Shown piece by piece: positions 6,924 through 43,503 of a stretch of 64,000 nucleotides of DNA. This DNA is from Lachnospiraceae bacterium (GTDB taxonomy: Bacteria; Bacillota; Clostridia; Lachnospirales; Lachnospiraceae), in assembly GCA_024696005.1 (NCBI GenBank), contig JAILHF010000022.1, positions 1 through 64,000 on the forward strand, written 5' to 3'. The position numbers were made by a program, and so were the translations under genes. Position 1 is the stretch's first letter; every line of letters begins with the position of its first letter. The notes beneath the pieces were generated by a model, which saw only the letters and a program-made list of their open reading frames with translations, did not search any database and was not told the origin of the DNA.

Positions 6924-7035
6924 GGCTAACACAAGAGCCAAATAAGAGGAAAGTGTTAGTCAAAGAGAGTAGATTGGGGGAAGAAAAGGGGAATCCCGGC
7001 TAACACAAGAGCCGGATAAAGAGGGATGTGTTAGC
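6924..7035 (+). repeat. 75-bp palindromic repeat array, 2 units (array A0)
   Basis: Two units start with GGCTAACACA at 6924 and 6998 (period 74) and close with degenerate or full TGTGTTAGC; the second unit pairs GGCTAACACA with TGTGTTAGC around a 19-base A/G-rich loop. The family recurs at 35001-35339 (inverted) and 43048-43503 (same orientation as here). It lies directly after the TIR gene and before the duplicated TIR 3' end. Nothing in it resembles a coding region. Confidence 0.8.
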
Positions 7036-7039
7036 TGAA

Positions 7040-7064
7040 GAGCGCTACCAGATGATGCGATGAG
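7040..7064 (+). pseudogene. Duplicated 3' end of the TIR gene
   Basis: Twenty-five bases here match 6841-6865 with one mismatch (A6859 versus C7058). Read in frame, they give ERYQMMR and a stop, the same C-terminus as the TIR protein, and the single difference is a synonymous Arg codon. The copy lies just after array A0, so the array is bracketed by direct repeats of the gene end. It may be the remnant of a second TIR paralogue or a duplication made when the array was inserted. Confidence 0.6.
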
Positions 7065-7075
7065 AAGGGGCGCCG

Positions 7076-7299
7076 GAGCAGAAGACATAAGGGCCGGGCA
7101 CGTCGCGGAGGAGCCCGTCAGCTCTTGAAGCTGCCGGATGGAAAGAGGGACGATCCGCATGGATTGCGGATCGAGCGAGAGCCGACCGTAGGGAGGGGGC
7201 GTTTCCGTTCGAGCGGTCCCGGGCTGTACCGGAAATGAAAGCAGCTTCTTAGAGCTGCGTGGCTCCGCAGTGGTGCCCGGAACTTATGTCTGTCTGCTC
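7076..7299 (+). repeat. Long imperfect palindrome element, copy 1
   Basis: A 224-bp element opens with GAGCAGAAGACATAAG and closes with CTTATGTCTGTCTGCTC, its inverted complement. Inner segments pair in register: GGGCAC with GTGCCC, GGAGCC with GGCTCC, and a CAGCTC..AAGCTGC arm with GCAGCTT..GAGCTG. The centre holds a hairpin CGATCCGC-loop-GCGGATCG. A second copy lies inverted at 29532-29751. It may be a MITE-like element or a structured RNA. With arrays and the pta leader it fills the 610-base gap between the TIR gene and pta. Confidence 0.75.
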
Positions 7300-7331
7300 G
7301 TAGCCAACTGCAATCGACCTGATGAATAAAC

Positions 7332-7361
7332 TTGCAGGAAGCACCGATTTCGTGGTATGAT
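7332..7361 (+). promoter_or_regulatory. Predicted pta operon promoter and leader hairpin
   Basis: A -35 TTGCAG (7332-7337) and a -10 TATGAT (7356-7361) are spaced by 18 bases. Downstream, the 5' leader (to 7474) holds a hairpin with AGCCCT pairing AGGGCT around a CCGC/GCGG inner stem. No known riboswitch was recognised. Confidence 0.5.
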
Positions 7362-7474
7362 AAGATTTAGCCCTCTGAAAAAGGCCGCCCTGCGGCGAAG
7401 GGCTTTGGGAAAAACGTTTCAGACTGCCCTGGCGGCAGATAAAATGGAAATCATGTACAGGAGGTGAGACTGCA

Positions 7475-8458
7475 ATGTTCGGATTCGGAGCAATGATCCA
7501 GAAACTGAAGGCCAACCCCAAGACCATCGTTCTTACGGAAGGGGAGGATCCGCGTATCCTGGAGGCGGCCAGCCGCTTGCTGGCGAGCAATTTCCTCACG
7601 CCCATCCTTCTCGGGGACGAGAAGGAGGTGGCAAACGCGGCAGAGGAAGCGGGTTACAACATCCGCGGCGCCCAGATCATCAATCCCCTGAACTACGAGC
7701 GTCTGGATGAGGTGACGCAGGAGTTTTACGAGATCCGCAAGGAAAAGGGCATGACGATGGAAAAGGCCCAGAAGACCATGACCCAGCGGAACTATTTCGG
7801 CACCATGCTGGTCAAGATGGGGATCGCGGACTGCCTGCTGGGCGGAGCAACCTATTCCACGGCGGATACGGTGCGTCCGGCCCTGCAGATCATCAAGACC
7901 AAGCCGAGCAACAGCATCGTCTCGTCCTGTTTCATCCTCGTGCGTCCCGGCGCGACCGGTGAGAACGAGGTGCTCGCCATGGCGGACTGCGCGATCAACA
8001 TCCAGCCTTCCGAAGACGAGCTGGTCGAGATCTGCGGCGAGACCATCAACTGTGCCCGCATCTTCGGCATCGATCCGAAGGTGGCGTTTCTGAGCTATTC
8101 CACCCTGGGTTCCGGCAAGGGCGATTCCGTCGACAAGATGCGCAACGCCGCGGCCAAGGCCAAGGAGGAGTTCCCGGATGTGCCCATCGACGGCGAGTTC
8201 CAGTTCGATACCGCCGTTTCGCCCCGTGTGGCAAGGCAGAAAGCGCCCGGCAGCAAGGTGGCCGGATATGCGAACACCTTCATCTTTCCCGACATCAACG
8301 CAGGCAACCTGGGTTACAAGATCGCGCAGCGCATGGGTAATTTCGAGGCCTACGGCCCGATCCTTTTGGGTCTGAACGCGCAGATCAACGACCTTTCCCG
8401 CGGCTGCAATGCGCTGGAGGTATATTCGATGGCCATCATCACGGCCGCATTAACTTAA
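7475..8458 (+). CDS. pta: Phosphate acetyltransferase
   Basis: A 327-residue enzyme interconverting acetyl-CoA and acetyl phosphate, giving ATP through acetate kinase. Family signatures are clear: TEGEDPRILEAA near 21-32, GGATYSTADTVRPALQ, SCFILVRPG, and the C-terminal FPDINAGNLGYKIAQRM. Length is normal for the single-domain form. AGGAGGTG lies just upstream of ATG 7475. No ackA follows; instead hprK starts 17 bases on. The gene therefore leads an operon linking acetate metabolism with HPr-kinase signalling and peptidoglycan synthesis. Confidence 0.96.
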   Translation: MFGFGAMIQKLKANPKTIVLTEGEDPRILEAASRLLASNFLTPILLGDEKEVANAAEEAGYNIRGAQIINPLNYERLDEVTQEFYEIRKEKGMTMEKAQKTMTQRNYFGTMLVKMGIADCLLGGATYSTADTVRPALQIIKTKPSNSIVSSCFILVRPGATGENEVLAMADCAINIQPSEDELVEICGETINCARIFGIDPKVAFLSYSTLGSGKGDSVDKMRNAAAKAKEEFPDVPIDGEFQFDTAVSPRVARQKAPGSKVAGYANTFIFPDINAGNLGYKIAQRMGNFEAYGPILLGLNAQINDLSRGCNALEVYSMAIITAALT

Positions 8459-8475
8459 TATAGGAGGGTTACAAC

Positions 8476-9411
8476 ATGGCAAGCATCAGCCTGCAGCGAC
8501 TGATCGACAAACAGAAACTGACCAATCTCACCGACGAGATCGACGCGAGCAAGATCAAGATCACGCAGCCCGATATCAACCGTCCGGCCATTCAGCTGGC
8601 GGGCTATCTGGAGCATTACGACGCAACGCGTCTGCAGATCGTCGGATTCGTGGAATATTCCTACATGGAGCAGATGCCCGAGGAAAAGAAGCGCGAGATC
8701 TACGACAAGGTGCTGCTGAGCAGTACGCCGGCATTCGTGTTCTGCCGTGATCTGCAGCCGGATCCCCTGTTCAGGGAGATCGCGATCGAAAAGGGCGTGG
8801 CCCTGCTTTCCACCTCGAAGGCAACCTCGGTGTTCATGGCCGAGACCATACGCTGGCTCAATGCCAAGCTGGCACCCTGCATCACGGTGCACGGCGTGCT
8901 GGTGGATATCTTCGGTGAAGGCGTGCTGATCACCGGTGAGAGCGGCATCGGTAAGAGTGAATGCGCCCTGGAGCTGATCAAGCGCGGACACCGTCTGGTT
9001 TCGGACGATGTGGTGGAGCTGCGCAAGGTGTCGGAGGAGACGCTGATCGGCACGGCGCCCGAAGTGACAAAGCACTTTATCGAGATCCGCGGTATCGGCA
9101 TCGTGGACGTGCGCATGCTCTTCGGTGTGCAGAGCGTCAAGGAGGACCAGGAGGTCAATCTGGTGATCCGCCTGTCCGAGTGGTCGAAGGATCAGGAATA
9201 CGACCGCGTGGGCATGGAGGAGCAGTATACGGAATATCTGGGGAACAAGGTGGTCTGCCACAACATTCCCATCCGTCCCGGCCGTAACACGGCGCTGATC
9301 TGCGAGTCGGCGGCTGTCAACTACCGTCAGAAAAAGATGGGCTACAACGCCACGCAGGAGCTTTACAAGCGCATGCAGCAGGCGCTGGAGCACAGGGATG
9401 ACAATCTGTAA
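8476..9411 (+). CDS. hprK: HPr kinase/phosphorylase
   Basis: A 311-residue bifunctional enzyme that phosphorylates or dephosphorylates Ser46 of HPr and Crh in carbon catabolite control. The Walker A loop GESGIGKS is at 154-161, preceded by HG (139-140) and followed by the family segment RGHRLVSDDVVEL. The C-terminal LVIRLSEW...RPGRN region is also typical. AGGAGGG precedes ATG 8476. The gene sits in one operon with an HPr-like protein at 14017, which keeps the target Ser but not the PTS His. Confidence 0.95.
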   Translation: MASISLQRLIDKQKLTNLTDEIDASKIKITQPDINRPAIQLAGYLEHYDATRLQIVGFVEYSYMEQMPEEKKREIYDKVLLSSTPAFVFCRDLQPDPLFREIAIEKGVALLSTSKATSVFMAETIRWLNAKLAPCITVHGVLVDIFGEGVLITGESGIGKSECALELIKRGHRLVSDDVVELRKVSEETLIGTAPEVTKHFIEIRGIGIVDVRMLFGVQSVKEDQEVNLVIRLSEWSKDQEYDRVGMEEQYTEYLGNKVVCHNIPIRPGRNTALICESAAVNYRQKKMGYNATQELYKRMQQALEHRDDNL

Positions 9412-9426
9412 AAAGGGGAAGGAAAA

Positions 9427-10374
9427 ATGGCAAAGATGCTTTTCGGGGTGGACCTGGGCGGTACCACCGTTAAAATGGGACTTTTCGATGCGGACGGCAA
9501 TGTAACGGACAAGTGGGAGATCCCCACCCGAAAGGAGAATGCGGGCAGCCTCATCCTTCCGGACATCGCAGATTCCGTCAAGAGCAAGATGGCGGAAAAA
9601 GGCCTGAAAAAGGAAGACGTGCTGGGCGTGGGCATCGGCGTGCCGGGCCCCGTGGACGCTTCGGGCGTGATCCACAAGGCTGCGAACCTGGGCTGGGGCG
9701 TGTTCTCGATCCGTGAGACCATGGAAGGCCTGCTGGACGGCATTCCCGTGGCAGCCGGCAACGACGCCAACGTGGCGGCCCTGGGCGAGATGTGGCAGGG
9801 CGGCGGCCGGGGCTGCCGCAATCTGGTAGCCGTGACGCTGGGTACCGGCGTGGGCGGCGGCATCATCGTGGAGGGACAGATCCTCACGGGTTCCACCGGA
9901 GCCGGCGGCGAGATCGGCCACATCCATATCGTGGATGACGAGCCCGAGACCTGCGGCTGCGGCAATCACGGCTGCCTGGAGCAGTACGCCTCCGCAACGG
10001 GCGTGACGCGGCTTGCAAAGCGCCGTCTGGAGAAGGACGATGCGCCTTCGGCCCTGCGCGGCAGTTCCCTCAGCGCCAAGGCGGTCTGGGACGCGGTAAA
10101 GGAAGGGGATGCGGTTGCGATCGAAGTGGCGAAGGAATTCGGTCATTATCTGGGCAAAGGCCTGGCGGCGATCGCCTGCGTGGTCAATCCCGAAGTATTC
10201 GTGATCGGCGGCGGCGTTTCCAAGGCCGGCGAAGTCCTTTTTGACTATATCTGCGACGAATACAAGAAATACGTTTTCCACGGCAGCAGGGAGGCAAAAT
10301 TCGTCCTTGCGACCCTCGGAAACGATGCCGGGATATTCGGCGCGGCAAAATTGATTTTGGATGAAATAAAATAA
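9427..10374 (+). CDS. ROK-family sugar kinase (glucokinase-like)
   Basis: A 315-residue kinase. The N-terminal phosphate loop GVDLGGTTVKMG is at 8-19, the catalytic Asp is in GNDANVAALGE, and the zinc-binding ROK motif CGCGNHGCLEQYAS is near 178-191. Length fits glucokinase of the ROK type in Firmicutes, which phosphorylates glucose in the cytosol. It lies 15 bases after hprK with a GGGGAAGG ribosome site. The neighbours (pta, hprK) suit a role in glycolytic sugar entry; other hexose or amino-sugar substrates cannot be excluded. Confidence 0.88.
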   Translation: MAKMLFGVDLGGTTVKMGLFDADGNVTDKWEIPTRKENAGSLILPDIADSVKSKMAEKGLKKEDVLGVGIGVPGPVDASGVIHKAANLGWGVFSIRETMEGLLDGIPVAAGNDANVAALGEMWQGGGRGCRNLVAVTLGTGVGGGIIVEGQILTGSTGAGGEIGHIHIVDDEPETCGCGNHGCLEQYASATGVTRLAKRRLEKDDAPSALRGSSLSAKAVWDAVKEGDAVAIEVAKEFGHYLGKGLAAIACVVNPEVFVIGGGVSKAGEVLFDYICDEYKKYVFHGSREAKFVLATLGNDAGIFGAAKLILDEIK

Positions 10375-10394
10375 TCGGGCAGAGCATTATCCTT

Positions 10395-11375
10395 ATGTGT
10401 AACTATGATGATTTGGGCAAAAGGATAAAGGAACTGTCCGGGATCGGGGTCTTTCGGGAGCACGAGCCCATGAGCGGGCATTGTACCTTTCGTGCGGGAG
10501 GAAAGACCCGTTTCTATGTGGAGACGGAAACGGAGCAGGCTCTGAAGGAGCTTCTGGCGCTGCTTGGGGAGGAGGGCTGCCCCTGGTTCCTTTTGGGGAA
10601 CGGCAGCAACCTGTTGGTGTCCGACAGGGGCTACGATGGCGTGATGATACGCCTCGGCGCGGAATTTGCGCAGCTGCGGACCGAAGGGGATGTGATCCGG
10701 GCCGGCGCGGCAGTGCCCCTGGCCAGGCTGGCCAATGCGGCGGCGGACGAAGGCCTGACTGGGCTGGAATTTGCCGGCGGCATCCCCGGCACGCTGGGAG
10801 GGGCTCTCGTGATGAACGCGGGTGCCTATGGCGGCGAAATGGCGGATGTGGTACAATGGGTGCGTTTGTTTTTCCCTAAGGAGCTTCCGCCGGAAACGGA
10901 GAGGAAGAAATGGGAGAGCGCCGGGGAGCGGATGTTCATCGTTCCGGGCAGTGAGATGCGCTTTTCCTACCGGCACAGCCTGCTGAAGGAATGCCGGGCC
11001 GTGGCCCTGGAGGCGGGCATCGCCCTGCAGAGCGGGGAACGGGAAGCCATATTGGACAGAATGGCGGAGCTTCGGAAGCAGAGAAGCGAGAAGCAGCCGC
11101 TGGAATACCCGAGCGCGGGTTCCTTTTTCAAGCGTCCCGAGGGGGCGTTCGCGGGCAAGCTGATCGCGGATGCCGGCTGCAAGGGCCTTTCGGTAGGGGA
11201 CGCCTGCGTATCGGAAAAGCACGCCGGCTTCATCATCAACAAAGGCAGTGCCAGCGCCGGGGACATCCGGGCGTTGATGGATGAGGTGAGAGAGCGCGTG
11301 GAAAAAGGATCCGGGATCCGACTGGAAGCCGAGGTGATCCTTTTGGGGGAATTCGGAGATGGAAGATCTATCTGA
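10395..11375 (+). CDS. murB: UDP-N-acetylenolpyruvoylglucosamine reductase
   Basis: A 326-residue FAD enzyme that reduces UDP-GlcNAc-enolpyruvate to UDP-MurNAc in peptidoglycan precursor synthesis. Seen are the FAD-binding LGNGSNLLV, FAGGIPGTLGGALVMNAGAYG, the catalytic-Ser segment YPSAGSFFKRP, and the C-terminal HAGFIINKGSASAGDI. This is a type II (Firmicutes) MurB. No clear Shine-Dalgarno precedes ATG 10395, so it may depend on coupling from the ROK gene 20 bases upstream. The 3' end overlaps the next gene by 17 bases. Confidence 0.95.
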   Translation: MCNYDDLGKRIKELSGIGVFREHEPMSGHCTFRAGGKTRFYVETETEQALKELLALLGEEGCPWFLLGNGSNLLVSDRGYDGVMIRLGAEFAQLRTEGDVIRAGAAVPLARLANAAADEGLTGLEFAGGIPGTLGGALVMNAGAYGGEMADVVQWVRLFFPKELPPETERKKWESAGERMFIVPGSEMRFSYRHSLLKECRAVALEAGIALQSGEREAILDRMAELRKQRSEKQPLEYPSAGSFFKRPEGAFAGKLIADAGCKGLSVGDACVSEKHAGFIINKGSASAGDIRALMDEVRERVEKGSGIRLEAEVILLGEFGDGRSI

Positions 11376-12471
11376 AGAAAAAGAACAGAACGCAAGGCCG
11401 AAGCGCAAGCGCAGGCTCTATTTTGACATCCTCTGGGTGATATCCATCATCGTCGTGATCTTTAACTATTCCGACGGTGTTTTGGCGTATGCGAGTCTCG
11501 ACCCGTCCACCTGGCAGTACAACATGGCGCTGTTTCTCACGCTTTTTGCCAAGTTCCCGCTGTGGCTATGCCTGATGATCAGCGGGGCCATCCTGCTGGA
11601 CATGCACGAAGCGATACGCACGGTCTGGAGAAAGCGCATCAGCCGTCTTCTGGTCATCCTGGTGGCCTTTTCCTTCCTGTATTATCTCAACGATGTGATG
11701 AAAGGCCGTGACACCTTTGATCTGATACGTTTCATCCCCGATCTGTATGCCCGGGACCGCGTGACCCAGTACTGGTACCTGTATGCATCCCTGGGCTTCA
11801 TGATCTGCCTGCCCTTCATGCGGCCGATGGTCAAGAACATGCGGGATGTGGATTTCGTCTATCTGATCCTCGCGGTCTTTACCTTAAGCTCCATCCTTCC
11901 GCTCTTTGACCTCTATGTGCTGAAGGACCGCTATTACTTAAACCCCAGCATGAAGCTGGAATGGGTCACCGAGGTGATCTTCATATACCCGGTGATGGGC
12001 TATTTCATCCATTGCCGCCTGAGCACGCAGAAATGCCGGAAACTGTGCTGGATCCTGATCCCGCTGGATCTGGCCTGGCTGGTCTACAATACCCACATCT
12101 ACAAGAACAGCGGCGTGTCCGTGGGTTCCGTGTACATGTATCCTGAAGTGCACGGCAGCTCGACCATGCTGCACTGTGTCACGCTCTTCATCACGGCCAA
12201 GGCGTATTTCAAGCGCATGGAGCAGAAGAAGTGGGAACTCGCGATCGGCTCCCTGGGGGGCTGTTCCTTCGGGATCTACCTGCTCTTCGGCTTTTTCCTG
12301 GACGGTCGTGTGGATCTGATCGAGAATCTCCGCCTGAAGGTGGAGGGCGATGCGACCGGACTGGCACTGATGGGAAGGGCCATGCTCTGGAGCATCATCA
12401 CCTATTTTGCCTGCTACATCCCGGTCTGGCTGCTGCGGCGCATCCCCGGACTGCGGGATATGACACTGTAA
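11359..12471 (+). CDS. Multi-pass membrane protein, acyltransferase-3-like, active-site residues absent
   Basis: A 370-residue protein with about ten hydrophobic helices after a charged N-terminus. Layout and the first helix (FDILWVISIIVVIFNYSDG) resemble acyltransferase family 3, which O-acylates surface sugars. However, the Arg and His of that family's DGLRG...H motif align with Trp and Asn here, so the usual catalytic pair seems lost. ATG 11359 lies inside the end of murB, and rapZ follows after 12 bases. It may be a non-catalytic relative or a transporter of an envelope precursor. Assignment is tentative. Confidence 0.5.
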   Translation: MEDLSEEKEQNARPKRKRRLYFDILWVISIIVVIFNYSDGVLAYASLDPSTWQYNMALFLTLFAKFPLWLCLMISGAILLDMHEAIRTVWRKRISRLLVILVAFSFLYYLNDVMKGRDTFDLIRFIPDLYARDRVTQYWYLYASLGFMICLPFMRPMVKNMRDVDFVYLILAVFTLSSILPLFDLYVLKDRYYLNPSMKLEWVTEVIFIYPVMGYFIHCRLSTQKCRKLCWILIPLDLAWLVYNTHIYKNSGVSVGSVYMYPEVHGSSTMLHCVTLFITAKAYFKRMEQKKWELAIGSLGGCSFGIYLLFGFFLDGRVDLIENLRLKVEGDATGLALMGRAMLWSIITYFACYIPVWLLRRIPGLRDMTL

Positions 12472-12483
12472 GGAGGTCCTGCT

Positions 12484-13341
12484 TTGCGTTTTGTGATCGT
12501 GACGGGCATGAGCGGTGCGGGAAAGCAGACCGCCATGAAGATGCTGGAGGACATGGGCTTTTACTGCGTGGATAACCTGCCCGTGCCCCTGATCGACAAA
12601 TTCATCGAGCTTTTTACCGGCCCCGGCAGCGAGCTGTCCAAGGTGGCCCTGGGGCTGGATGTGCGTGCCGACCAGGATTTTACCGAGGCGGAGCACATGC
12701 TGCAGTCGCTTCGGCGCAAGCAGTATCCCTTTGAACTGATCTTCATGGACGCGGACGACCGCGTGCTGATCAAGCGCTACAAGGAAAGCCGCCGCGTGCA
12801 CCCGCTGGCCGGCAGCGACAGCCTGGAAAGCGGCATTAAGCGGGAGCGGCGCATCCTCGAAAATGTGAAAAAAACGGCGGATTACGTCTTCGACACCTCG
12901 GATCTGCTCACCAGGGTGCTGAAGGAGGAGCTGGACCGCATCTTTTTGCAGGGAGAGGAGTTCCACAGCCTGATCATCCGGGTGGTGAGCTTCGGCTTCA
13001 AATACGGGATCCCGATGGACGCCGATCTGGTCTTTGACGTGCGTTTCCTGCCCAATCCCTATTATATCGACGAACTGAAGCGCATGAGCGGCAACGATGC
13101 CCCCGTGCACGATTATGTGATGAGCTTTCCCGAGGCGACCGAGTTTCTGGACAAGCTGGACGGGCTCCTGCGCTTTCTGATCCCCAATTATGTCAAGGAA
13201 GGCAAGCATCAGCTGGTGATCGCCATCGGCTGCACCGGCGGGCGCCATCGCAGTGTCACGCTGGCATCGGAACTGTACGGACGCTTGAAAGAGCACGGAA
13301 AGTACGGTCTGACGATCACACACCGTGACGAGAGGCTTTAA
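12484..13341 (+). CDS. rapZ: RNase adapter / nucleotide-binding protein RapZ
   Basis: A 285-residue P-loop protein of the RapZ/YvcJ family. It starts at TTG 12484 behind AAGGAGGT. The order of motifs is typical: TGMSGAGKQ (7-15), MEDMGFYCVDNLPV-like segment (22-34), and the C-terminal IAIGCTGGRHRSV with VKEGKHQL before it. In E. coli RapZ guides RNase E to the GlmZ RNA; in Bacillus YvcJ affects competence. One oddity is the Walker A loop, which reads GK-Q-T where Ser or Thr normally follows the Lys. whiA begins two bases after the stop. Confidence 0.92.
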   Translation: MRFVIVTGMSGAGKQTAMKMLEDMGFYCVDNLPVPLIDKFIELFTGPGSELSKVALGLDVRADQDFTEAEHMLQSLRRKQYPFELIFMDADDRVLIKRYKESRRVHPLAGSDSLESGIKRERRILENVKKTADYVFDTSDLLTRVLKEELDRIFLQGEEFHSLIIRVVSFGFKYGIPMDADLVFDVRFLPNPYYIDELKRMSGNDAPVHDYVMSFPEATEFLDKLDGLLRFLIPNYVKEGKHQLVIAIGCTGGRHRSVTLASELYGRLKEHGKYGLTITHRDERL

Positions 13342-13343
13342 AC

Positions 13344-14012: not shown

Positions 14013-14016
14013 CTTT

Positions 14017-14268
14017 ATGGAAAAGGAAGTTGTTGTTACGCTGGAGGACGGCATCAATGCCGATGTGGTGAGCCTGCTGGTACAGACCGCCTGCCGCTTT
14101 GACAGCCGGCTTTATCTGCAGGAAGGCGAGCGCAAGGTCAACATGAAGAGCATCATGGGGATGATGAACATGGCAGTAAACAGCGGCAAGGCCGTGACGG
14201 TGATCGCGGACGGCGCGGATGCAGCCGAAGCGGTATCCCAGATCGAAAAGGTTCTCACCGGGAAATAA
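14017..14268 (+). CDS. Crh-like HPr-family protein lacking the PTS histidine
   Basis: An 83-residue HPr-fold protein. Its residues DGINADVV (11-18) align with the GLHARPA motif of HPr, placing Asn14 where the phosphorylatable His15 should be. KSIMGMM (44-50) keeps the regulatory serine (Ser45, equal to Ser46 of HPr). This pattern, plus position just after rapZ-whiA, matches Crh of Bacillus, which acts with CcpA in catabolite repression but not in sugar transport. ATG 14017 is preferred to 13996; GAGGAGG lies at 13998-14004. The end overlaps traX by 14 bases, tail to tail. Confidence 0.82.
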   Translation: MEKEVVVTLEDGINADVVSLLVQTACRFDSRLYLQEGERKVNMKSIMGMMNMAVNSGKAVTVIADGADAAEAVSQIEKVLTGK

Positions 14269-15187: not shown

Positions 15188-15277
15188 AGTATAGAAAAAT
15201 GTATTAAAAATGTTGTTTCGATAAACAAAATAACAACAATTTATGAACGAATTATGAACGCCTGAAACCCTTTATTT

Positions 15278-15887: not shown

Positions 15888-15893
15888 AGGACA

Positions 15894-29531: not shown

Positions 29532-29751
29532 GAGCAGAAGGACATAAGTTCTGGGCACCACTCCGGAGCCACGCAGCTCTAAGAAGCTGCTTTTATTTCC
29601 GGTACAGCCCGGGACCGCTCGAGACTTCGCATCCATGCGCAGGCTCGAGCTCTCGTCGCCATCCATGGCGACTCGTCCCTTTTTCCATTCTGCAGCTTCA
29701 AGAGCTGACGGGCTCCTCCGCGACGTGCCCCGGCCCTTATGTCCTCTGCTC
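29532..29751 (-). repeat. Long imperfect palindrome element, copy 2
   Basis: The inverted counterpart of 7076-7299. Read on the minus strand it opens GAGCAGAGGACATAAG and closes CTTATGTCCTTCTGCTC, with the same inner arms. Its central hairpins are GTCGCC-ATGGAT-GGCGAC and a CTCGAG-bounded one around CGCATGGATGCG; copy 1 has a different stem (GATCCGC/GCGGATC) around a similar ATGGAT loop. The element fills most of a 349-base gap between converging genes. I see nothing recognisable in 29445-29531. Confidence 0.75.
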
Positions 29752-33639: not shown

Positions 33640-33699
33640 TATAACACGAGCATGACCATGCCCGGAAGCGGGGATGGCAACAATAAGGAGGGAAAGAAC

Positions 33700-34917
33700 A
33701 TGGCGGATAATGAAATGCAGCAGGCAGTACAGGGTCTGGCGGATTCCAACAGCGCAGCGATCAGCGAGCTGGGGAATGCATCAACCATGCCCACGCTCAC
33801 GCTGGATCCTTTCGGAGCAGCTCCCACGGCCGAGACGGTGCCCGGAGTAGCGGTACCGAAGGAAATGGCTTCGGCGGCCGATGTGGCCGAGCAGCAGCTT
33901 TCGGAAGAAGAGAAAAAGATGGTGGATGCCTTTGCCACCCAGATCGATATCACCAACAGCAACGTGATCATGACATACGGAGCAGGTACCCAGCAGAAGA
34001 TGGCGGATTTCTCCGGCAAAGCGCTGGACAACGTGCGTTCCAAGGATATGGGTGAAGTCGGCGAGCTGCTGACCGGCGTTGTCGCCGAGCTGAAGGGCTT
34101 TAACGGCGAGGACGAAAAGGGCATCAAGGGCTTCTTCAAGAAGCAGGGCAACAAGCTGCAGATGATGAAGGCGAAATACGACAAGGCCGAGGTGAACATC
34201 AACCGCATCGTGGATACGCTGCAGCAGCACGAGACGCGCCTGATGAAGGATGCGGCGATGCTGGACAAGATGTACGACATGAACCTGGCTTACTTCAAGG
34301 AGCTGACGATGTACATCATCGCCGGCAAGAAGAAGCTGCAGGAAGCCGAGACCGTGGTGCTGCCCGAGCTTCAGCGCCGTGCCCAGGAGAGCGGGCTGCC
34401 CGAGGATGCGCAGAAGGCAAGGGATTACCAGGAGATGTGCGAGCGTTTCTCCAAAAAGATCGTTGACCTGGAGCTGACCAGGACCATCGCGATGCAGACG
34501 GCTCCGCAGATCCGCATGATCCAGTCCAACGACATGCAGATGGTGGACAAGATCCGTTCCACCATTGTCAATACCATTCCTCTGTGGAAGAGCCAGATGG
34601 TCATCGCTCTGGGCATCCAGAACGCGACCGAGGCCGCAAGGGCGCAGCGCGCGGTCACCGACGTGACCAACCAGATGCTCCTGCAGAACGCCGAGGCACT
34701 CAAGACCGCGACCATCGAGACCGAGAAGGAATCCCAGAGAGGCATCGTGGATATCGAGACGCTGAACAAGACGAACCAGAGCCTGATCACTACCTTCGAC
34801 GAAGTGATGCGCATCCAGTCCGAGGGCCGCGAGAAGCGCAAGCAGGCCGAGGCCGAGATGCAGCGCATGGAGAACGAGCTCAAGAACAAGCTTCTCGAGA
34901 TCAAGGGAACGAAATAA
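33700..34917 (+). CDS. TelA-like toxic anion resistance protein
   Basis: A 405-residue cytosolic, mostly helical protein of the TelA family (PF05816). Family features include VEELTGVVAELKGF-like segment near 110-125, MLDKMYDMNLAYFKELTMYIIAG, and the C-terminal LLQNAEALKTATIETEKES...GIVDIETL. AAGGAGGG before ATG 33700 fixes the start. TelA homologues are tied to tellurite or membrane-active stress resistance, with unknown mechanism. Its last 15 codons recur in diverged form at 35423-35467, beyond a terminator and repeat array A1. Confidence 0.88.
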   Translation: MADNEMQQAVQGLADSNSAAISELGNASTMPTLTLDPFGAAPTAETVPGVAVPKEMASAADVAEQQLSEEEKKMVDAFATQIDITNSNVIMTYGAGTQQKMADFSGKALDNVRSKDMGEVGELLTGVVAELKGFNGEDEKGIKGFFKKQGNKLQMMKAKYDKAEVNINRIVDTLQQHETRLMKDAAMLDKMYDMNLAYFKELTMYIIAGKKKLQEAETVVLPELQRRAQESGLPEDAQKARDYQEMCERFSKKIVDLELTRTIAMQTAPQIRMIQSNDMQMVDKIRSTIVNTIPLWKSQMVIALGIQNATEAARAQRAVTDVTNQMLLQNAEALKTATIETEKESQRGIVDIETLNKTNQSLITTFDEVMRIQSEGREKRKQAEAEMQRMENELKNKLLEIKGTK

Positions 34918-34977: not shown

Positions 34978-35000
34978 CTCAAGTGTACAAAGTGGGAAGG

Positions 35001-35351
35001 GGCTAACACATTCCCATGTTTTTGACTTCTGTGTTAGCCGCAGTACTCCTTTTCTCCTGACATCCGAGGTCCTTCGGCTAACACACCCCCTCAATTTTGG
35101 CAGCTGTGTTAGCCGCGGGCGCCCCCATTCGCCAGCTATCCGAAGTATGTGGCTAACACAACCCCTTGTTTTGGCACATTGTGTTAGCTGTTATTGCTTC
35201 CTTTCTTTCGACATCCGAGACTTTCGGCTAACACATTCCCCTATTTTTGTCTCCTGTGTTAGCCTCATGTGCGCCCATTCTCCGGATATCCGTGGCTTTC
35301 GGCTAACACACCCCCCCTATTTTCGCACTTGTGTCAGCCGGAGGTTCCTCC
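35001..35351 (+). repeat. 75-bp palindromic repeat array, 5 units (array A1)
   Basis: GGCTAACACA begins at 35001, 35076, 35151, 35226 and 35301, an exact 75-base period. Each unit closes its hairpin with TGTGTTAGCC (last one TGTGTCAGCC) after a 19-base loop, then has a 36-base linker that tends to contain ATCCG. The array ends in the small palindrome GGAGGTTCCTCC (35340-35351). Its units are related to those of array A2 in inverse orientation. With the terminator and a telA remnant, this fills the 599-base gap after telA. Confidence 0.9.
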
Positions 35352-35422
35352 ATGGATCATGAAACTGACGCAGCTCTGATCTGCAAGCGCCGCAACCGCC
35401 TGAACGGCAGCAGCCCCTCCCG

Positions 35423-35467
35423 GAGAACGAACTCAAAAACAAGCTGCTTGAGGTAAAGGGAACGAAA
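35423..35467 (+). pseudogene. Remnant of a second telA 3' end
   Basis: Fifteen codons read ENELKNKLLEVKGTK, against ENELKNKLLEIKGTK at the end of telA (34870-34914). The DNA differences are nearly all synonymous third-base changes, and the stop codon is gone. Such a pattern points to the tail of a once-functional paralogue rather than a recent copy. Upstream of it similarity fades within about 30 bases. Confidence 0.7.
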
Positions 35468-35516
35468 CCTTCAACATCGTTGCCATATGGAATGGAATAC
35501 AGATATTACGCTGTAC

Positions 35517-36197: not shown

Positions 36198-36250
36198 TCC
36201 ATGCTCCTCCTGATCATCGGATGGTATCTGCAACCATCCCACAATGAATG

Positions 36251-37180: not shown

Positions 37181-37197
37181 GGCTATAGCCCTCCTTT

Positions 37198-37215
37198 TAT
37201 ATCAATGATGATATA
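37198..37215 (-). promoter_or_regulatory. Palindrome upstream of the aldo/keto reductase, possible operator
   Basis: TATATCA-ATGA-TGATATA is a perfect seven-base inverted repeat, ending 17 bases before the start codon. It overlaps where a -10 or early transcript would lie. No regulator gene is adjacent, so the binder is unknown. The rest of 37216-37377 shows no gene. Confidence 0.4.
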
Positions 37216-37377
37216 TCACACGGGAATGCCATACTCCTTATATTCTGACCTTGCAATTCTCATATTTTGACGTAATGGTCTCTTGGGGACGGGGTTCATT
37301 AACTCCACTCAAATTTCGTTTTCTCTGCTTTCTCCATTTATCGGGAAGCAGGCCCCAATCGTCCCGCGGCACCTCCC

Positions 37378-38181
37378 TCACGCGCCGGCGCTGTTGTAGT
37401 GCCCCAGGCCGCTGCTCCACAGAAACTTCGCCGCGACCAGCGAAACAAATGCGATCAGCGGGGACAGGTACGCGAAGCAGGGATGGGGCAGGGGCTTCCC
37501 GAGCAGCCCTGCCACCGGATAATAGCCCGTGAACGCATAGGGCACGATGAAGCACAGCAGAAAACGCACGCCCTTGTTGTATATCGTGACAGGGTAATCC
37601 GTGTAATTCTTCAGTCCGTAGTTGTTGTTGGTAAGAAGCGAGACGATCTCTTCGCTCTTTACCGTCCAGAAACTGATCGAGCCCGTAAACACCGTGATGG
37701 AAGAAAAGATCACGAATGCGGAGAGCATGTTCACGGCGTACCAGAGCAGCGACTGCGCGTTCCAGGCGATCGAAAGCTTCGACATGCTGCGGATCCAGAA
37801 GTACACCGAAAGCACCAGGCGCGGGATGAAGGTATACTGAAACTGCTGCAGTACCATGTAGAGCATCGGACCGATCGGCCTGGTCAGGTACAGATCGAAC
37901 TTCCCGCTGCGTATGAGCTCGCCCATGTCCTTCATCGGGCTCCAGAAGAAGAAGCAGCTCAGGCTGTAGGCCAGCCAGCTGGTCGTGAACATGAACAGTA
38001 CCTCGTCCCTGCTCCAGCCGGCTATGTTATCGAAATTCCGGAAGATGACCAGAAAACCGGCAAAGTAGATCCCGATCTGGATCGTGTTGGCGATCAGTTC
38101 AAACAAAAGCGAGCAGTGATACGCAAGTTTTCCTTTCATGTAGATCACAACAAAGTGTCTGTACATTTTTAACAGATACAT
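37378..38181 (-). CDS. ABC-2 exporter permease (DUF990/PF06182 type), second subunit
   Basis: A 267-residue protein with six membrane helices. MYLLKMYRHFVVIYMKGKLAYHCSLLFELIANTIQ and SGKFDLYLTRPIGPMLY are typical of the paired ABC-2 permeases of this family. It starts three bases after the first permease and would form a heterodimer with it, powered by the ATPase at 39016-39807. Related systems export antibiotics or daunorubicin-like drugs. Substrate is not predictable. Confidence 0.82.
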   Translation of the reverse strand: MYLLKMYRHFVVIYMKGKLAYHCSLLFELIANTIQIGIYFAGFLVIFRNFDNIAGWSRDEVLFMFTTSWLAYSLSCFFFWSPMKDMGELIRSGKFDLYLTRPIGPMLYMVLQQFQYTFIPRLVLSVYFWIRSMSKLSIAWNAQSLLWYAVNMLSAFVIFSSITVFTGSISFWTVKSEEIVSLLTNNNYGLKNYTDYPVTIYNKGVRFLLCFIVPYAFTGYYPVAGLLGKPLPHPCFAYLSPLIAFVSLVAAKFLWSSGLGHYNSAGA

Positions 38182-38184
38182 GAT

Positions 38185-38976
38185 TTACCCTCCCTGGACA
38201 ATGAGTTTTTTCCGGCCCGCGTGCCAGGTCAATTCCGCGATGCCAAACAGGATGACGGCCCAAAGCAGCTGGACGCCGAGCTCCGAGCGGATGCTATCCT
38301 GCGACATCGGCGTGGTGATGATGCTCACCGGTATGGCATAGATGGCACGGAAGGGCAGGAAGAGGTTGATCTTCGCCAGCAGATCCGGGAACATGGCCGC
38401 CGGGATCCACGCCCCCGACAGCAGCTTGTAGATCGCGGCAAGCAGCATGTTGAGCGGCCAGGTCACGATCAGCCAGAAGGCCATCAGGCCGATGATCAGC
38501 GAGTACAAAAACTGGATCAGGTACGCAAGCAGAACGGAGAGGATCCCGTACGGCAGCTGCTCGCTGCACACCAGCGGCTCGCGGTAAAGGAGCGCGATCA
38601 GGATCGTGAGAGGAAGCGCGTACAGCACAAGCCCCGCCGCGCTTGTTCCGAGCTGCCGGAAAAAGACCATTGCCCGGAAATCCATGGGCCTGATCAGGCG
38701 GTTCGCGATGTCGCCGGTCCGGATCTGCTGATTGATCCGGCCGATCACGTCGCATTCCACGAAGGCGGAAAGGATCGTCGCAACAATGACATAGCGCAGC
38801 GTTCCGTCACGGCTCATGGGGACATCCTTTCCCGCATTCGAAGCGAAGAGGGCAGTCCACATGGCAAACTGCATGTAAAGATATACGATCTTCGAGACAA
38901 AGTTTGCCCGCACGGCGCCCGCATACGCGGTGTGTTCCTTTATTCCGATCCATGAATAATCCAGATATTTTCGCAT
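38185..38976 (-). CDS. ABC-2 exporter permease, first subunit
   Basis: A 263-residue protein with about six membrane helices, homologous in layout to its neighbour (IRTGDIANRLIRPMDFRAMVFFRQLG is the counterpart of the LTRPIGP region). ATG 38976 is chosen because GAGAAGAGG precedes it; an in-frame TTG at 38994 is possible. The gene lies 40 bases after the ATPase in a three-gene operon. Confidence 0.82.
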   Translation of the reverse strand: MRKYLDYSWIGIKEHTAYAGAVRANFVSKIVYLYMQFAMWTALFASNAGKDVPMSRDGTLRYVIVATILSAFVECDVIGRINQQIRTGDIANRLIRPMDFRAMVFFRQLGTSAAGLVLYALPLTILIALLYREPLVCSEQLPYGILSVLLAYLIQFLYSLIIGLMAFWLIVTWPLNMLLAAIYKLLSGAWIPAAMFPDLLAKINLFLPFRAIYAIPVSIITTPMSQDSIRSELGVQLLWAVILFGIAELTWHAGRKKLIVQGG

Positions 38977-39015
38977 CGTCCTCTTCTCCCGCAAATTCGA
39001 TCCGCTGTAGTTTTC

Positions 39016-39807
39016 TCATGCTCCCCGGCAGAGCTGATCCGCCCTGCTCTCCGCTGCTTCCTGTTCCCCCGCAAGATAGATCTGCTTTATGATCTCTTCG
39101 AGGTCCGTGGTCCCGTAGTTTTCTTTCAGCTCCCCAAGTGTTCCGTCGTAAATGATCGAACCCTTGTCGATGATGATCATCCTTTTGCAAAGCTTTTCGA
39201 TGTCGGAAACATCGTGCGTGGTCAGGATGATCGTGGTGTGCCTTTCCCGGTTGATGCGCTCGATGAAATTGCGGATGCGTTCTTTGGAGAGCACGTCTAT
39301 CCCGATCGTGGGTTCGTCCAGGAACAGGATGTCCGGGTTGTAGAGCAGGGCCGCCGCCAGATCCGCCTTCATCCGCTGACCGAGGCTCAGGAGTCTGGGC
39401 GGCTGTCCGATGAATTCATCCAGCCCGAGGATCTCCGAAAAGAGTTCCATGTTCTCTTTGTAGACGGCTTCGGGAACACGGTACATGTCGCGGAACAGCT
39501 TCAGGGTATCCAAAACCGGGATGTCCCAGCACAGAACGCTTTTCTGTCCGAACACCACGCCGGTCTTCATCATGATCTGCTTCCGGTTCTTTTTGAAGCT
39601 CAGGCCGTCAATGGATACGGAGCCGCTGTCGGGGATCAGGATGCCGGTCATCATCTTGATGGTCGTGGATTTGCCGGCACCGTTGGGCCCGATGAATCCG
39701 GTGATCTCTCCGTCGGGGATCGTGAATGAAACATGATCGACAGCGGTCTTTGCCTGTTTTTTCTTCAGCCGGTAGATCTTGGTAAGATTGTCCGCGTTGA
39801 TGCTCAT
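39016..39807 (-). CDS. ABC exporter ATP-binding protein
   Basis: A 263-residue ATPase. Walker A GPNGAGKS is at 40-47, the signature reads LSLGQRMKADL (a common variant in ABC-2 exporters), Walker B is LFLDEPTIGID and the switch His is in TTHDVSDIE. Of two close in-frame ATG codons, 39807 gives eight bases to GGAG, while 39813 gives only two. It drives the two permeases downstream. A LysR gene faces it across 129 bases. Confidence 0.93.
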   Translation of the reverse strand: MSINADNLTKIYRLKKKQAKTAVDHVSFTIPDGEITGFIGPNGAGKSTTIKMMTGILIPDSGSVSIDGLSFKKNRKQIMMKTGVVFGQKSVLCWDIPVLDTLKLFRDMYRVPEAVYKENMELFSEILGLDEFIGQPPRLLSLGQRMKADLAAALLYNPDILFLDEPTIGIDVLSKERIRNFIERINRERHTTIILTTHDVSDIEKLCKRMIIIDKGSIIYDGTLGELKENYGTTDLEEIIKQIYLAGEQEAAESRADQLCRGA

Positions 39808-39857
39808 CTGCATGTCTCCTTTCGCATTCGCTCTTGCATTCCGCCTTCGTTGTCTGT

Positions 39858-39911
39858 ATAATAGCATCAACGGATGTATCAGTAAAATTGAAATAAACGA
39901 TGATTATCATC
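39858..39911 (-). promoter_or_regulatory. ABC-exporter promoter with adjacent LysR-type palindrome
   Basis: Minus strand: -35 TTTACT (39881-39886), 17-base spacer, -10 TATTAT (39858-39863). Just upstream lies GATGATTATCATC (39899-39911), a perfect palindrome that contains the T-N11-A pattern of LysR sites and is centred about 54 bases before the expected transcription start. It also lies just upstream of the LysR gene, so one site could serve both directions. Confidence 0.55.
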
Positions 39912-39936
39912 AAAATTCACGATAATGGAGGCTGCC

Positions 39937-40809
39937 ATGAACAACACGCAGTTTGAGACATTTCTGAAACTGGTCGAGACCAAAAGCTTTACCGCCACGG
40001 CCAACATGCTCGGCTATGCGCAGTCGACCGTGACGACCCAGATCAAGCAGCTGGAGGAAGAGCTCGGCTGTCCGCTTTTCGACAGACTGGGAAAAACACT
40101 TGCCCTGACCGGCGAAGGTGAAAAACTGATCTCCCTCGCCGAGCAGATGCTGCAGCTGGAACGGGAGATCCTTCTGGAAGTGTCTCCCGAGAAGAACCCA
40201 ACGGGGACCATAAAACTGGGCGTTTCCGAATCGCTATGCTATGACAGGCTTCCGGACAAGCTGCTGAAATACAAGAAAAAGAATCCCGGTGTCGACATAC
40301 AGATCCAGTTCATCGAGCACGACAGCTTTCCCGCGCTTCTCAAAAGCGGAGCGCTGGATCTGGTCTATACCCTGAACCCGCTGATCGAAAATCCGGAGTT
40401 GGAAATGATCTTCAAAAGAAAAGAGAAGCTCGGATTTTTTGCCTGTCCCGATCATCCGATCGTACAGAAAAAGAAAGTAAGGGAAAAGGACCTGGAAGGC
40501 ATCCCCCTTCTGCTGACCTCGCACAAGTGCAGCTTCCGGAACATGCTGCTGCGCGATTTCAGCAAAGCGGGAATTCTTCCGAAGATAGAACTGGAGACCA
40601 GCAGCAAGGAGATCCTGAAGCAGTTTGCCATGAACGGGCTGGGTGTTGCTTTCATGCCGGCCATGGCCGCTGCCGCGGAGCTCAAGGCAAAGAAACTGAA
40701 AGAAGCAGACTGGGCCGGAGCCGCCTTTCCGATCTACTCACAGCTCTTCGTGCATAAAGACAAGCGCATCAATCGCGCGCTGGAAGACCTGATCGGACTG
40801 ATCGAATGA
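39937..40809 (+). CDS. LysR-family transcriptional regulator
   Basis: A 290-residue regulator. Residues 1-60 carry the LysR winged helix (FLKLVETKSFTATANMLGYAQSTVTTQIKQLEEELG), and the rest is the usual periplasmic-binding-like effector domain. ATG 39937 has GGAGG upstream. It is divergent from the ABC exporter operon, and a palindrome lies between them, so it probably controls that exporter in response to a small ligand. The stop overlaps a sequence repeated at the end of the next gene. Confidence 0.92.
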   Translation: MNNTQFETFLKLVETKSFTATANMLGYAQSTVTTQIKQLEEELGCPLFDRLGKTLALTGEGEKLISLAEQMLQLEREILLEVSPEKNPTGTIKLGVSESLCYDRLPDKLLKYKKKNPGVDIQIQFIEHDSFPALLKSGALDLVYTLNPLIENPELEMIFKRKEKLGFFACPDHPIVQKKKVREKDLEGIPLLLTSHKCSFRNMLLRDFSKAGILPKIELETSSKEILKQFAMNGLGVAFMPAMAAAAELKAKKLKEADWAGAAFPIYSQLFVHKDKRINRALEDLIGLIE

Positions 40810-40845
40810 ACCAAGAGGCCACTCAATATAGGAGTTATAAAGAAA

Positions 40846-41922
40846 ATGATAGATTTTACAACAACAACTGCATGTGGAGAGTGTTGCATCGGCTGTTCCA
40901 AGAAGGAAGACGGATCATGTCCCGGATGTATACAGGCCGAAGGAAAAGTTCCCGATGCAATTCACCTTACCGAATTGCGGGAGGAATACATAAAGCAACA
41001 CGCATCGTTCGATCCAGACAAGGCAGAGTGTATCGAAAGGGTTTTGTCACACTGGGAACTTGAGAATCCCGGAATTGAAAATCGCTACCATGAGGATTCC
41101 GAACGCTTGATCTACAGAGTTACAACGGCATCGGGAACGTATTTGTTGAAGGGATTCCCAGGAACCACACCGGAAACCAGGATTCAGGGAAATGTTCAGG
41201 CTCATCTGTTTTTGGGAAACGAGCATGGCATGGCTCCTGTTTTGTATCCGACGAAGAGTGGAGAATACTATGTGGGCGATTCGGGATATTGGTTTTATCT
41301 GATGGAATATATCAACGGAAGACAGATGGAAGAAACACCTGAAGACGAATATAAACTCGCCCGGGAAACGCGGATAATGCATGCTTTACGGGGATACGGG
41401 TTGAAATCTCCATTGACACAGAGCAAGGAGAGATACTATAGCTGGTTTAGAAACCTTGACTTTGTGAAGGAATTTGACGAAATACTTGATTCAATCCCGG
41501 ATTTTGATACGCAGGATCAGTGTTTCGTTCATACCGACATCGGACCGCACAATGCGATGCTGCGAGAAAATGGAGACGTTGCCTTTATTGATCTGGATGA
41601 TGCGGGCATAGGAAGCAGGTACCTGGACCTTGGTTGGCCGCTTATCATGCAGTTCGTGAAGTTTAACCACGAAACGGAAGAAATGACATATCGTTTTGAC
41701 CTGGCCCTGGCTTTCCTGAAAGGATACTACGGCCGGGAGAACATCTCCAGAGAGGAATATGATCTGGTTTTTCATGGAGCCGTACAGATGCATATTTCCT
41801 ATATGCAGTCGTACGGCCCGTATGCTGTGGATTCACTTTGGAAGATACTAAAGTTCGGAATGAAACAAAAGGAAGCATTATGGGAAATGATGAACCAAGA
41901 GACCACTTACCAGTCAAAATAG
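40846..41922 (+). CDS. APH-type kinase fused to a Cys-rich DUF3795-like N-terminus
   Basis: A 358-residue protein. Residues 9-36 (ACGECCIGCSKKEDG and CPGCIQAEGKVP) are a Cys-rich segment like the start of DUF3795 proteins, but only that short part is present. From about residue 55 on it is an aminoglycoside-phosphotransferase/choline-kinase fold: the catalytic loop HTDIGPHN at 229-236 (Asp231, Asn236) and the metal-binding FIDLDDAGIG. It should phosphorylate a small molecule. A short sequence just before the gene (40806-40824) recurs at its end (41890-41908). Its 3' end overlaps the lipoprotein gene tail to tail. Confidence 0.75.
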   Translation: MIDFTTTTACGECCIGCSKKEDGSCPGCIQAEGKVPDAIHLTELREEYIKQHASFDPDKAECIERVLSHWELENPGIENRYHEDSERLIYRVTTASGTYLLKGFPGTTPETRIQGNVQAHLFLGNEHGMAPVLYPTKSGEYYVGDSGYWFYLMEYINGRQMEETPEDEYKLARETRIMHALRGYGLKSPLTQSKERYYSWFRNLDFVKEFDEILDSIPDFDTQDQCFVHTDIGPHNAMLRENGDVAFIDLDDAGIGSRYLDLGWPLIMQFVKFNHETEEMTYRFDLALAFLKGYYGRENISREEYDLVFHGAVQMHISYMQSYGPYAVDSLWKILKFGMKQKEALWEMMNQETTYQSK

Positions 41923-42890
41923 GGGTAGTTTCCGAAGTAGCTGAATCCGAGGATCCCCCAGGTAAACACGCCGTTTTTCATCATTTCTCTCCAGCCCTCG
42001 GGACCCCCTATGGATTCAATGTAATCCGGGAACACATTTGCGCGGGTCGGTTCAATGCAATAATACCTATCCTCGTCCATCAGATAAGTCGGCTCATCGG
42101 ATATGGTGGGATTATCCAGGCATTGCAGGCCGTTTTCAAATTCTACGACCGTATCACTGGCACTCTCACTTCCGTCATCACGATAGTTGCATCTGTAGTT
42201 GACCTCTTCGTACAGGCCGTGCACAACAGATCCTTTCATGGTTGCGCTTTTTACAAAGTTTTCATCATACCCCTCCAGCACAAAATCCCCTTCCGGAAGG
42301 TCGTTTTCCCAGGATACATCATATATGTTTCCTTTCCAGTACGGCTCCGTGTAGAACTCGCTGTGTCCGGGCGCGAAGTCCGCGGCGTATTCGACCCAAA
42401 CGCCTTCGCCTTCCCGCAGACCGTCCTTATACTCACCGAAATAGATAAAGGTATTGTTGATGTCAAAAATATCCGTGCCCAGGCTGACCTGAACATGATA
42501 GGCACCGATCGGCCCGTATTGCGTATCATAGATCCGGTGGTCCGTTTCCGTGTCCGCAGCCATTTCGTGAGCAAGCTGTGCATACGCTTCGCCATTCATC
42601 AGCTCGAGGGCGGCTTTTCTGTCATCCTCACTGAGTGCTTTGGCAATGTCCACGAGCACGCCTTCTTCGAGCATTTCCAATCCGCTGTCATCCCCGGCTT
42701 CCTCAACCGGCTCTTCCTCTTCTTCCGCAGGTTCCTCCGTCACAGGCTCGGTCTGCTCATCCTTTTCTTCCTCAGCCGGAGTCGGCGTCGTTTCTTCTGC
42801 CTTTCCGTCATCCTTGCCGTTCTCTCCGCAGGCGATCATGGATGCGCTCATGGCTGCAGCCAGCAATAAACAAAGCATTTTCTTTTTCAT
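41907..42890 (-). CDS. Lipoprotein with acidic linker and MORN-like motif
   Basis: A 327-residue protein. Signal peptide and lipobox end at Cys21 (ASMIAC), followed by a Glu/Pro-rich linker to about residue 68. The folded part includes YFGEYKDGLREGEGVW, which matches a MORN repeat; I see no other recognisable domain. It should be anchored on the outer face of the membrane. GGAGGG precedes the ATG, and a strong promoter lies upstream. The 3' end overlaps the kinase gene by 16 bases on the opposite strand. Confidence 0.7.
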   Translation of the reverse strand: MKKKMLCLLLAAAMSASMIACGENGKDDGKAEETTPTPAEEEKDEQTEPVTEEPAEEEEEPVEEAGDDSGLEMLEEGVLVDIAKALSEDDRKAALELMNGEAYAQLAHEMAADTETDHRIYDTQYGPIGAYHVQVSLGTDIFDINNTFIYFGEYKDGLREGEGVWVEYAADFAPGHSEFYTEPYWKGNIYDVSWENDLPEGDFVLEGYDENFVKSATMKGSVVHGLYEEVNYRCNYRDDGSESASDTVVEFENGLQCLDNPTISDEPTYLMDEDRYYCIEPTRANVFPDYIESIGGPEGWREMMKNGVFTWGILGFSYFGNYPYFDW

Positions 42891-42929
42891 TTTTTCCCTC
42901 CGTTGTCAGCAAAAATATAAAGCAGACAA

Positions 42930-42958
42930 ACTATATACTTATATATATATAATGTCAA
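42930..42958 (-). promoter_or_regulatory. Lipoprotein gene promoter
   Basis: Minus strand: consensus -35 TTGACA (42953-42958), 17-base spacer, -10 TATAGT (42930-42935), in a very AT-rich stretch 40-70 bases before the ATG. Confidence 0.7.
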
Positions 42959-43035
42959 TATTTTTTCAAAGAAAGAACGGACTGAAGGTTTATATCCTGT
43001 CACCATATGCAACAAGGGCTTGCTTTCCGAAAAAT

Positions 43036-43503
43036 GGAGGAATCTCCGGCTGACACAAGTGCGAAAATAGAGGGGGTGTGTTAGCCGAAAGCCACGGATA
43101 TCCGGAGAAAAGTAGTACTGCGGCTAACACAGCTGCCAAAATAGAGGGGTGTGTTAGCCGGGAACCACTGATATCCGGTGAATGAGGGCTTCTGCGGCTA
43201 ACACAGCTGCCAAAATTGAGGGGGTGTGTTAGCCGAAGGACCTCGGTTGTCAGGAGAAAAGGAGTACTGCGGCTAACACAGGTTCCAAAATAGAGGGATG
43301 TGTTAGCCGAAAGTCTCGGATGTCGAAAGAAAGGAAGCAATAACAGCTAACACAATGTGCCAAAACAAGGGGTTGTGTTAGCCACATACTTCGGATAGCT
43401 GGCGAATGGGGGCGCCCGCGACTAACACAAGTACCCAAAAAGGGGGATGTGTTAGCCACATACCTCGGATATCTGAAGAAAGGGAACACCCGTGGCTAAC
43501 ACA
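43036..43503 (-). repeat. 75-bp palindromic repeat array, 7 units (array A2)
   Basis: Unit starts on the plus strand are at 43048, 43122, 43196, 43271, 43345, 43420 and 43494 (period 74-75). Outer arms are GGCTAACACA and TGTGTTAGCC; the last unit has lost its far arm, and units 5 and 6 have one changed base in the first arm. Read on the minus strand, units match those of A1, and 43298-43420 is an exact inverse copy of 35114-35236. GGAGGAATCTCC at 43036-43047 corresponds to the closing palindrome of A1. Apart from this array I see nothing in 42959-43533. Confidence 0.9.

Follow-up and report, generated by a model that had tools for sequence, protein, structure and literature searches.

A 64,000-nucleotide stretch of a Lachnospiraceae genome (contig JAILHF010000022.1 of assembly GCA_024696005.1, positions 1 to 64,000; hereafter the window) carries three arrays of tandemly repeated palindromes. 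These apparently belong to a widespread and undescribed family of arrays, in which palindromes spaced by whole turns of the DNA helix seem to be paired with a gene, here called X, for a nuclease-like protein. The pairing of array and X, often beside comEC, suggests that the two form a mobile or DNA-sorting element of a new type. A preceding interpretation made from the letters of the window alone (the sequence-only reading) had called the repeats a new-looking family, and this is now supported; the differences in arm sequence between species and the partner gene X lay beyond its sight.

Structure and distribution of the arrays

Each unit consists of a palindrome of 38–40 bp with arms GGCTAACACA...TGTGTTAGCC, or near variants of these, followed by a 36 bp linker. 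The three loci that had been reported in the window are all present where they had been placed (W1–W3, Table 1), and the window contains six exact arm pairs where each of 100 shuffled versions contains none; the remaining units have at least one arm letter changed. The reported copy numbers of two and five are correct for W1 and W2, but the seven given for W3 include a lone left arm. W2 is inverted relative to W1 and W3, and W2 and W3 have units in common, in a different order.

A covariance model of the palindrome, which the sequence-only reading had proposed, revealed further arrays in the same 3.75 Mb genome (G000). At least 90 units in at least 16 arrays, together with a lone unit on contig C41, were gathered by a pattern tolerating one extra change per arm, a lower bound since 150 of 1199 first-look candidates were scored in the genome-wide search. 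The palindrome is 38 bp long in 46 of the 90 units, 39 bp in 42 and 40 bp in two, and the linker is 36 bp at 70 of 74 junctions (25, 35, 35 and 53 bp at the others). Linker sequences differ from array to array, and it is therefore linker length, not sequence, that is conserved. The units of most arrays share one orientation; in arrays C60 and L037 the best strand varies between units without alternating throughout, and in C60 (L022:1950-2876, 13 units) the middle units are opposite in strand to the end units, constituting an internal inversion.

By a crude open reading frame (ORF) caller the arrays are intergenic, with overlapping frames reported at W2, W3, C59b and C8, and the placement of the window repeats outside genes holds as far as tested. 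Of the two such frames in the window, one runs antisense to TelA and the other, 116 aa long, lies across W3; neither the latter nor the frames scanned at C59b and C8 (303 aa at C8) have a Pfam match. The gene preceding array C29 runs 22 bases into its first unit. A search among relatives, also proposed at the outset and here subject to stricter filters, succeeded within the genus (6 of 35 genomes, including this one) and not beyond it (none of 25). A scan of the whole window against Rfam, as had likewise been advised, gave no family at gathering score on the arrays; a scan of W3 gave sub-threshold matches only, and one to CRISPR-DR55 beside W3 was rejected on that ground (24.2 versus 41 bits, E 0.43).

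Association of the arrays with gene X

The X gene of this genome (G000:C53:130415-131227, 271 aa) lies downstream of comEC, with the same arms alongside. Its product is predicted to contain a coiled-coil arm with a beta-hairpin followed by a PD-(D/E)XK-like domain, the predicted fold of which is that of the Vsr / I-Bth0305I / TnsA group. None of the X members scanned matches a Pfam or NCBIfam family at cut-off, and the single match to a solved structure by sequence was discarded as chance-level (E 1.1). The nuclease domain does match the C-terminus of the PADLOC candidate PDC-S68 (E ~1e-26).

Homologues of X are present in 16 of 60 relatives. At 14 of 19 X loci, a set that includes two more from this genome, a tandem array with a period of 52–75 lies just upstream, with recurrent palindromes in 11 of the 14; two of the five loci without an array start at a contig end. 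A scan of public genomes gave at least 588 relatives of X, from which 80 loci were kept, mostly from rumen Lachnospiraceae and some from Treponema. Among the 64 of these with at least 600 bp of upstream sequence, an array is located upstream of X in 45 and on either side in 48, compared with 5 of 115 control windows, and several of the 16 loci without an array show weak periodicity at 63, 64, 72 or 74. An earlier count using other windows gave 48 of 72 X loci and 10 of 117 controls; locus L070 in that count (lag 30) proved to be an artefact of a run of Ns. Loci L098, L109 and L126 were excluded from both the X frame check and alignment A6, and L104, L133 and L137 from A6 only.

Within the order, 46 of 295 genomes and 20 of 130 genera contain X, with up to 8 matches per genome among those listed. 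Something array-like is situated upstream of 12 of 19 further X loci in other genera, by loose criteria applied without a control. The arm sequences differ from X to X, and arm similarity tracks X identity better than does the similarity of loops or linkers.

Two related observations were made in passing. In two genomes a second tandem repeat with a period of 40–41 is present just downstream of X (L049:2949-3175 and L054:2910-3082), and X-type nuclease domains were found in plasmid records (hits H3–H11) within RecQ, RecD-like or AAA genes on 8 of 9 records, the ninth being unannotated.

Helix-phased spacing

Of 96 X-upstream regions, 52 contain recurrent palindromes, whose spacings cluster at 52–54 bp (13), 62–64 bp (31), 72–74 bp (102), 84 bp (5) and 104–105 bp (4), with one spacing of 81 bp and three of 122–128 bp outside these clusters. 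A step of 10.5 bp fits best (R 0.90) for the 39 distinct pairs of arm and spacing up to 90 bp; when longer spacings are included (44 pairs) the same step gives R 0.83 and the best fit is 10.25 bp. Neither value of R was reached in 20000 uniform draws, in which shared ancestry is not modelled. Switches of about one turn occur inside individual arrays (73/84 in L105, 53/62 in L058 and 64/74 in L130), that in L105 coinciding with an 11 bp change in loop length. The palindrome itself is 34–39 bp in 31 of 40 arrays. In further genera spacings of 52, 54, 62, 63, 73 and 53/106 are seen, together with off-values of 42, 60, 65, 75 and 86. The suggestion that a period near seven helical turns reflects stacked protein sites is strengthened by these related arrays, which are built at about 5, 6, 7 and 8 turns, and by the linker, which is fixed in length and not in sequence.

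Dispersed arrays with common arms

Where arrays are dispersed through a genome they have their arms in common and not their loops. In G013 the X locus shares the arm GCTGTAATT with one other locus, whose loops differ, and in G021 the arm GCAATAA recurs in two arrays besides that at the X locus. The design recurs with other arms in an independent isolate, P6A3 (genome G060, locus L083): its exact arm pair GGCTATAA/TTATAGCC is present 47 times, against 0 in the control, and a search tolerant of mismatches brings the total to at least 82 units, spread over 13 arrays. The palindrome is 37 bp in 78 units, and the linker is 36 bp in 53 of 63 cases and 35 bp in eight. The period-62 type of the window's own genome has exact arms only at its own X.

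Two kinds of unit, A (GGCTAATA) and B (GGCTATAA), make up the arrays of P6A3 and occupy distinct blocks. By a looser pattern (95 units), all ten mixed arrays (among loci L170-L181) contain a single switch between A and B, and three arrays are B only; under random order the chances of these single switches multiply to about 5e-16, common descent being ignored. As the contigs are written, A precedes B in nine arrays and B precedes A in one (L180), with A first in all seven mixed arrays of contig C1. Block direction has no consistent sign relative to GC skew in the 12 pieces compared. The A block was considered as a site for the second X of P6A3 and rejected, that X having arms GCATCAA with a period of 62. 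By eye, a motif CCTCAGAAA / TTTCTGAGG recurs in many P6A3 loops and linkers (L170-L180) and is a possible second site.

Variation of the arms within units

Arm positions 3, 4 and 8 are invariant across all 180 arms (90 units) in this genome. At position 6 the two arms read A/A in 63 units, C/A in 19, A/C in seven and G/A in one, and 26 of the 90 units have an uncompensated mismatch within the stem; C/C is never seen, where independence predicts about 1.5 units by hand estimate. At position 1 there are 49 G-C, 17 G-T, 15 A-C and eight A-T units and one other, the doubly changed A-T class being close to the approximately six expected by hand estimate if the arms were independent. There is thus no excess of compensatory stem changes in these units, and the two arms of each unit vary independently. 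This independence, together with the uncompensated mismatches, is more in keeping with protein half-sites of the form RGCTA[AC]CACA than with a stem conserved for base pairing. The alternative in the sequence-only reading, repeated RNA hairpins, finds no support in this genome, and RNA hairpins are also unlikely on a second ground, since quantisation by helical turns is a property of double-stranded DNA.

Linkage to comEC

At 33 of 95 loci (two contigs being counted twice) X is preceded by a co-directional comEC homologue, whose match ends 21 to 1080 bp ahead of X. Among the 56 loci with at least 3.5 kb of upstream sequence, comEC precedes X in 12 of 12 where X is at least 55% identical to that of genome G031, in 17 of 24 at 45–55% identity and in none of 20 below 45%. 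The link is strong for one X subfamily only.

Array turnover and gene-end copies

Two of the window arrays are followed by a diverged copy of the 3' end of the gene upstream (Table 1).

Table 1. Arrays of the window and the flanking direct repeats
Feature	Position	Strand	Details
Array W1	6924..7036	+	2 units (palindromes 38 and 39 bp, linker 36 bp); right arm of first unit imperfect
Array W2	35001..35339	-	5 units; spacing 75, 75, 75, 75
Array W3	43048..43503	+	6 complete units and left arm of a seventh; spacing 74-75
3' end of TIR-domain gene (5116-6864), left copy of 25 bp direct repeat	6841..6865	+	24/25 identical to 7040-7064
Relic of TIR gene end after W1	7040..7064	+	One difference, synonymous by eye
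3' end of TelA gene (33652-34917), left copy of 46 bp direct repeat	34869..34914	+	
Relic of TelA gene end after W2	35422..35467	+	40/46 identical

Five of the six differences in the W2 relic are at third codon positions, as judged by eye. Compared over 30 bases with the gene ends of relatives, this relic fits better than the resident copy in 9 of 13 cases, equally in three and worse in one; the better fits are by a margin of one or two bases, and the sole worse case is misread at an internal stop. No array is present at 12 readable orthologues of the TelA gene end (300 bp each). Such gene-end copies follow 4 of 31 array loci of the genus (W1, W2, C36 of G031 and C66 of G029, the last containing a stop) and none of the 13 arrays of P6A3. 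As a signature or mechanism of insertion they were suggestive within the genus, and this idea was dropped since they are absent from P6A3; they suggest that some arrays once received foreign DNA, and do not amount to a fixed insertion signature. Two more flank repeats (at C68, E 1e-6, and C41, E 0.002) could not be placed as gene-end copies.

When flanks of up to 2 kb are compared, the arrays of this genome share their place with those of other species at the comEC–X locus. Array C8 and a unit of G013 lie on opposite sides of a homologous gene, and one further orthologous site carries six units in G031 and one in G001. A separate, identical dispersed repeat of 28–30 bp was noticed near arrays of G031 and G001 (flanks of L031, L035 and L036).

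Possible functions of the array–X pair

The adjacency of array and X, the cognate arms, the fixed linkers, the quantised spacing and the predicted fold are most simply accounted for by helix-phased binding of X to the arrays, and dispersed arrays with a single X for each arm type are reminiscent of REP/RAYT. The reading that we favour, which we judge about equally likely to be right or wrong, is that the arrays are helix-phased binding sites and form with X a REP/RAYT-like pair spread and maintained by X. The arrays would serve as double-stranded DNA sites for the cognate X, phased on one face of the helix; each palindrome would present a pair of half-sites (here RGCTA[A/C]CACA) separated by about 29 bp, with linkers holding successive palindromes in register, and one X gene would pair with many dispersed non-coding arrays of matching arms. 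Cutting by X at or near arrays, followed by recombinational repair, could then spread the arrays and keep them alike. Given the position of X behind comEC in its subfamily, X may there act on DNA imported through ComEC. The arms of P6A3 mostly match within a unit (51 B/B, 22 A/A, seven mixed of the A kind and two other), which fits either a symmetric dimer site or a hairpin, and the pairing test is therefore not one-sided.

We regard it as a tentative possibility that X recognises own-species arrays in DNA entering through ComEC as a self-address and steers recombination there. Were this so, the arrays would both spread themselves and act as barriers to genetic exchange among rumen Lachnospiraceae, and the two-block order of arms would give each array a direction.

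A host-serving address is doubtful. In this explanation the arrays mark own-species DNA, in the manner of a DNA uptake sequence (DUS), and X directs DNA entering through ComEC to recombine at them. The upstream, co-directional comEC at 29 of the 36 closer loci, the species-specific arms and the imported-looking W2 relic, with its third-position differences, are all consistent with it, but there are only about 13–17 array loci per genome, and known uptake sequences are far more numerous; moreover, none of the 20 X homologues below 45% identity is linked to comEC, yet many have arrays, and the relics are missing from P6A3.

We consider it rather unlikely that the arrays are operators or sinks restraining a defence-type nuclease. 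The array directly before X at 45 of 64 loci and the match to the C-terminus of the candidate defence protein PDC-S68 would suit such control, but many arrays are far from X in unrelated intergenic places, and a local operator requires neither dispersal nor whole-turn spacing across up to 13 units.

An array transcribed into structured RNA, such as an antitoxin-like RNA of the type III kind acting on X, is improbable. The folding of the stems, the position of the array ahead of the gene, which resembles that of the tandem repeats just upstream of the gene in type III toxin–antitoxin systems, and the mostly matching arms of P6A3 are in its favour; against these stand the uncompensated position-6 mismatches, the near-chance pairing at position 1, the helix-turn quantisation, the dispersed arrays and the absence of an Rfam match. 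Passive satellite DNA, arising by plain tandem duplication and associated with X by coincidence or hitch-hiking, is very improbable, for although units have been shuffled and copied between W2 and W3 and copy number has drifted (six units against one at an orthologous site), the arms remain similar where loops and linkers have diverged, the association with X extends across many lineages, the spacing is quantised and the block order switches once in every mixed P6A3 array.

A large unnamed protein family is now tied to cognate arrays with helix-quantised spacing. If X mobilises or reads these arrays, the pair would solve the REP/RAYT problem a second time by unrelated means or, alternatively, would link DNA uptake to species-specific recombination in gut and rumen bacteria, and the arm changes between species provide natural pairs for learning how X reads DNA.

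Comparison with known systems

Two reports describe REP sequences as dispersed, extragenic, species-specific palindromes which flank the RAYT enzyme gene and co-vary with it, with co-evolution and correlated abundance (PMC2817692, PMC3733652). X is likewise flanked by cognate palindromes with which it co-varies. Unlike RAYT, X has a predicted PD-(D/E)XK-like domain, and identity with RAYT/Y1 proteins was rejected, Y1_Tnp (PF01797) having no match in this genome at E 0.001 (5 of 14 control genomes were positive). Unlike REP sequences and BIMEs, the units are mostly head to tail in one direction and helix-phased, not alternating, and no constant GTAG or CGTC tag stands beside the palindrome in an alignment of 27 units.

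X differs from the Vsr / I-Bth0305I / TnsA group in its N-terminal coiled coil with a beta-hairpin and its cognate palindrome array. It shares a related C-terminal nuclease domain with PDC-S68, whose profiles (about 1200–1270 positions) are matched at their C-terminal end only, whereas X is small, stands alone and has an array. As in TIGR-Tas a tandem array lies beside one effector gene, but none of 10 X proteins has the Nop domain of the TIGR-Tas effector at E up to 1 in Pfam, and the array units often share loops and linkers and are therefore unlike TIGR-Tas guides. In contrast to type III toxin–antitoxin systems the arrays are also dispersed through the genome and helix-phased, and the predicted fold of X is different; in contrast to the near-identical repeats and unique spacers of CRISPR, the palindromes have variable loops and the same linkers recur within an array. 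We found no description of such a nuclease–array pair, or of PDC-S68, in the literature covered, preprints and most subscription papers being outside its scope, and for the 10-mer of the arm nothing related by title among the matches listed.

Other features of the window

A separate tandem repeat at 1886-2032 (period 77, 1.9 copies) is unlike the arrays in sequence. The TIR-domain gene upstream of W1 (+ strand) encodes a protein of 582 aa with the domain (TIR_2) at its N-terminus, and a TwoAYGGAY RNA (RF01731, 94 bits) is located at 29558-29723 on the minus strand.

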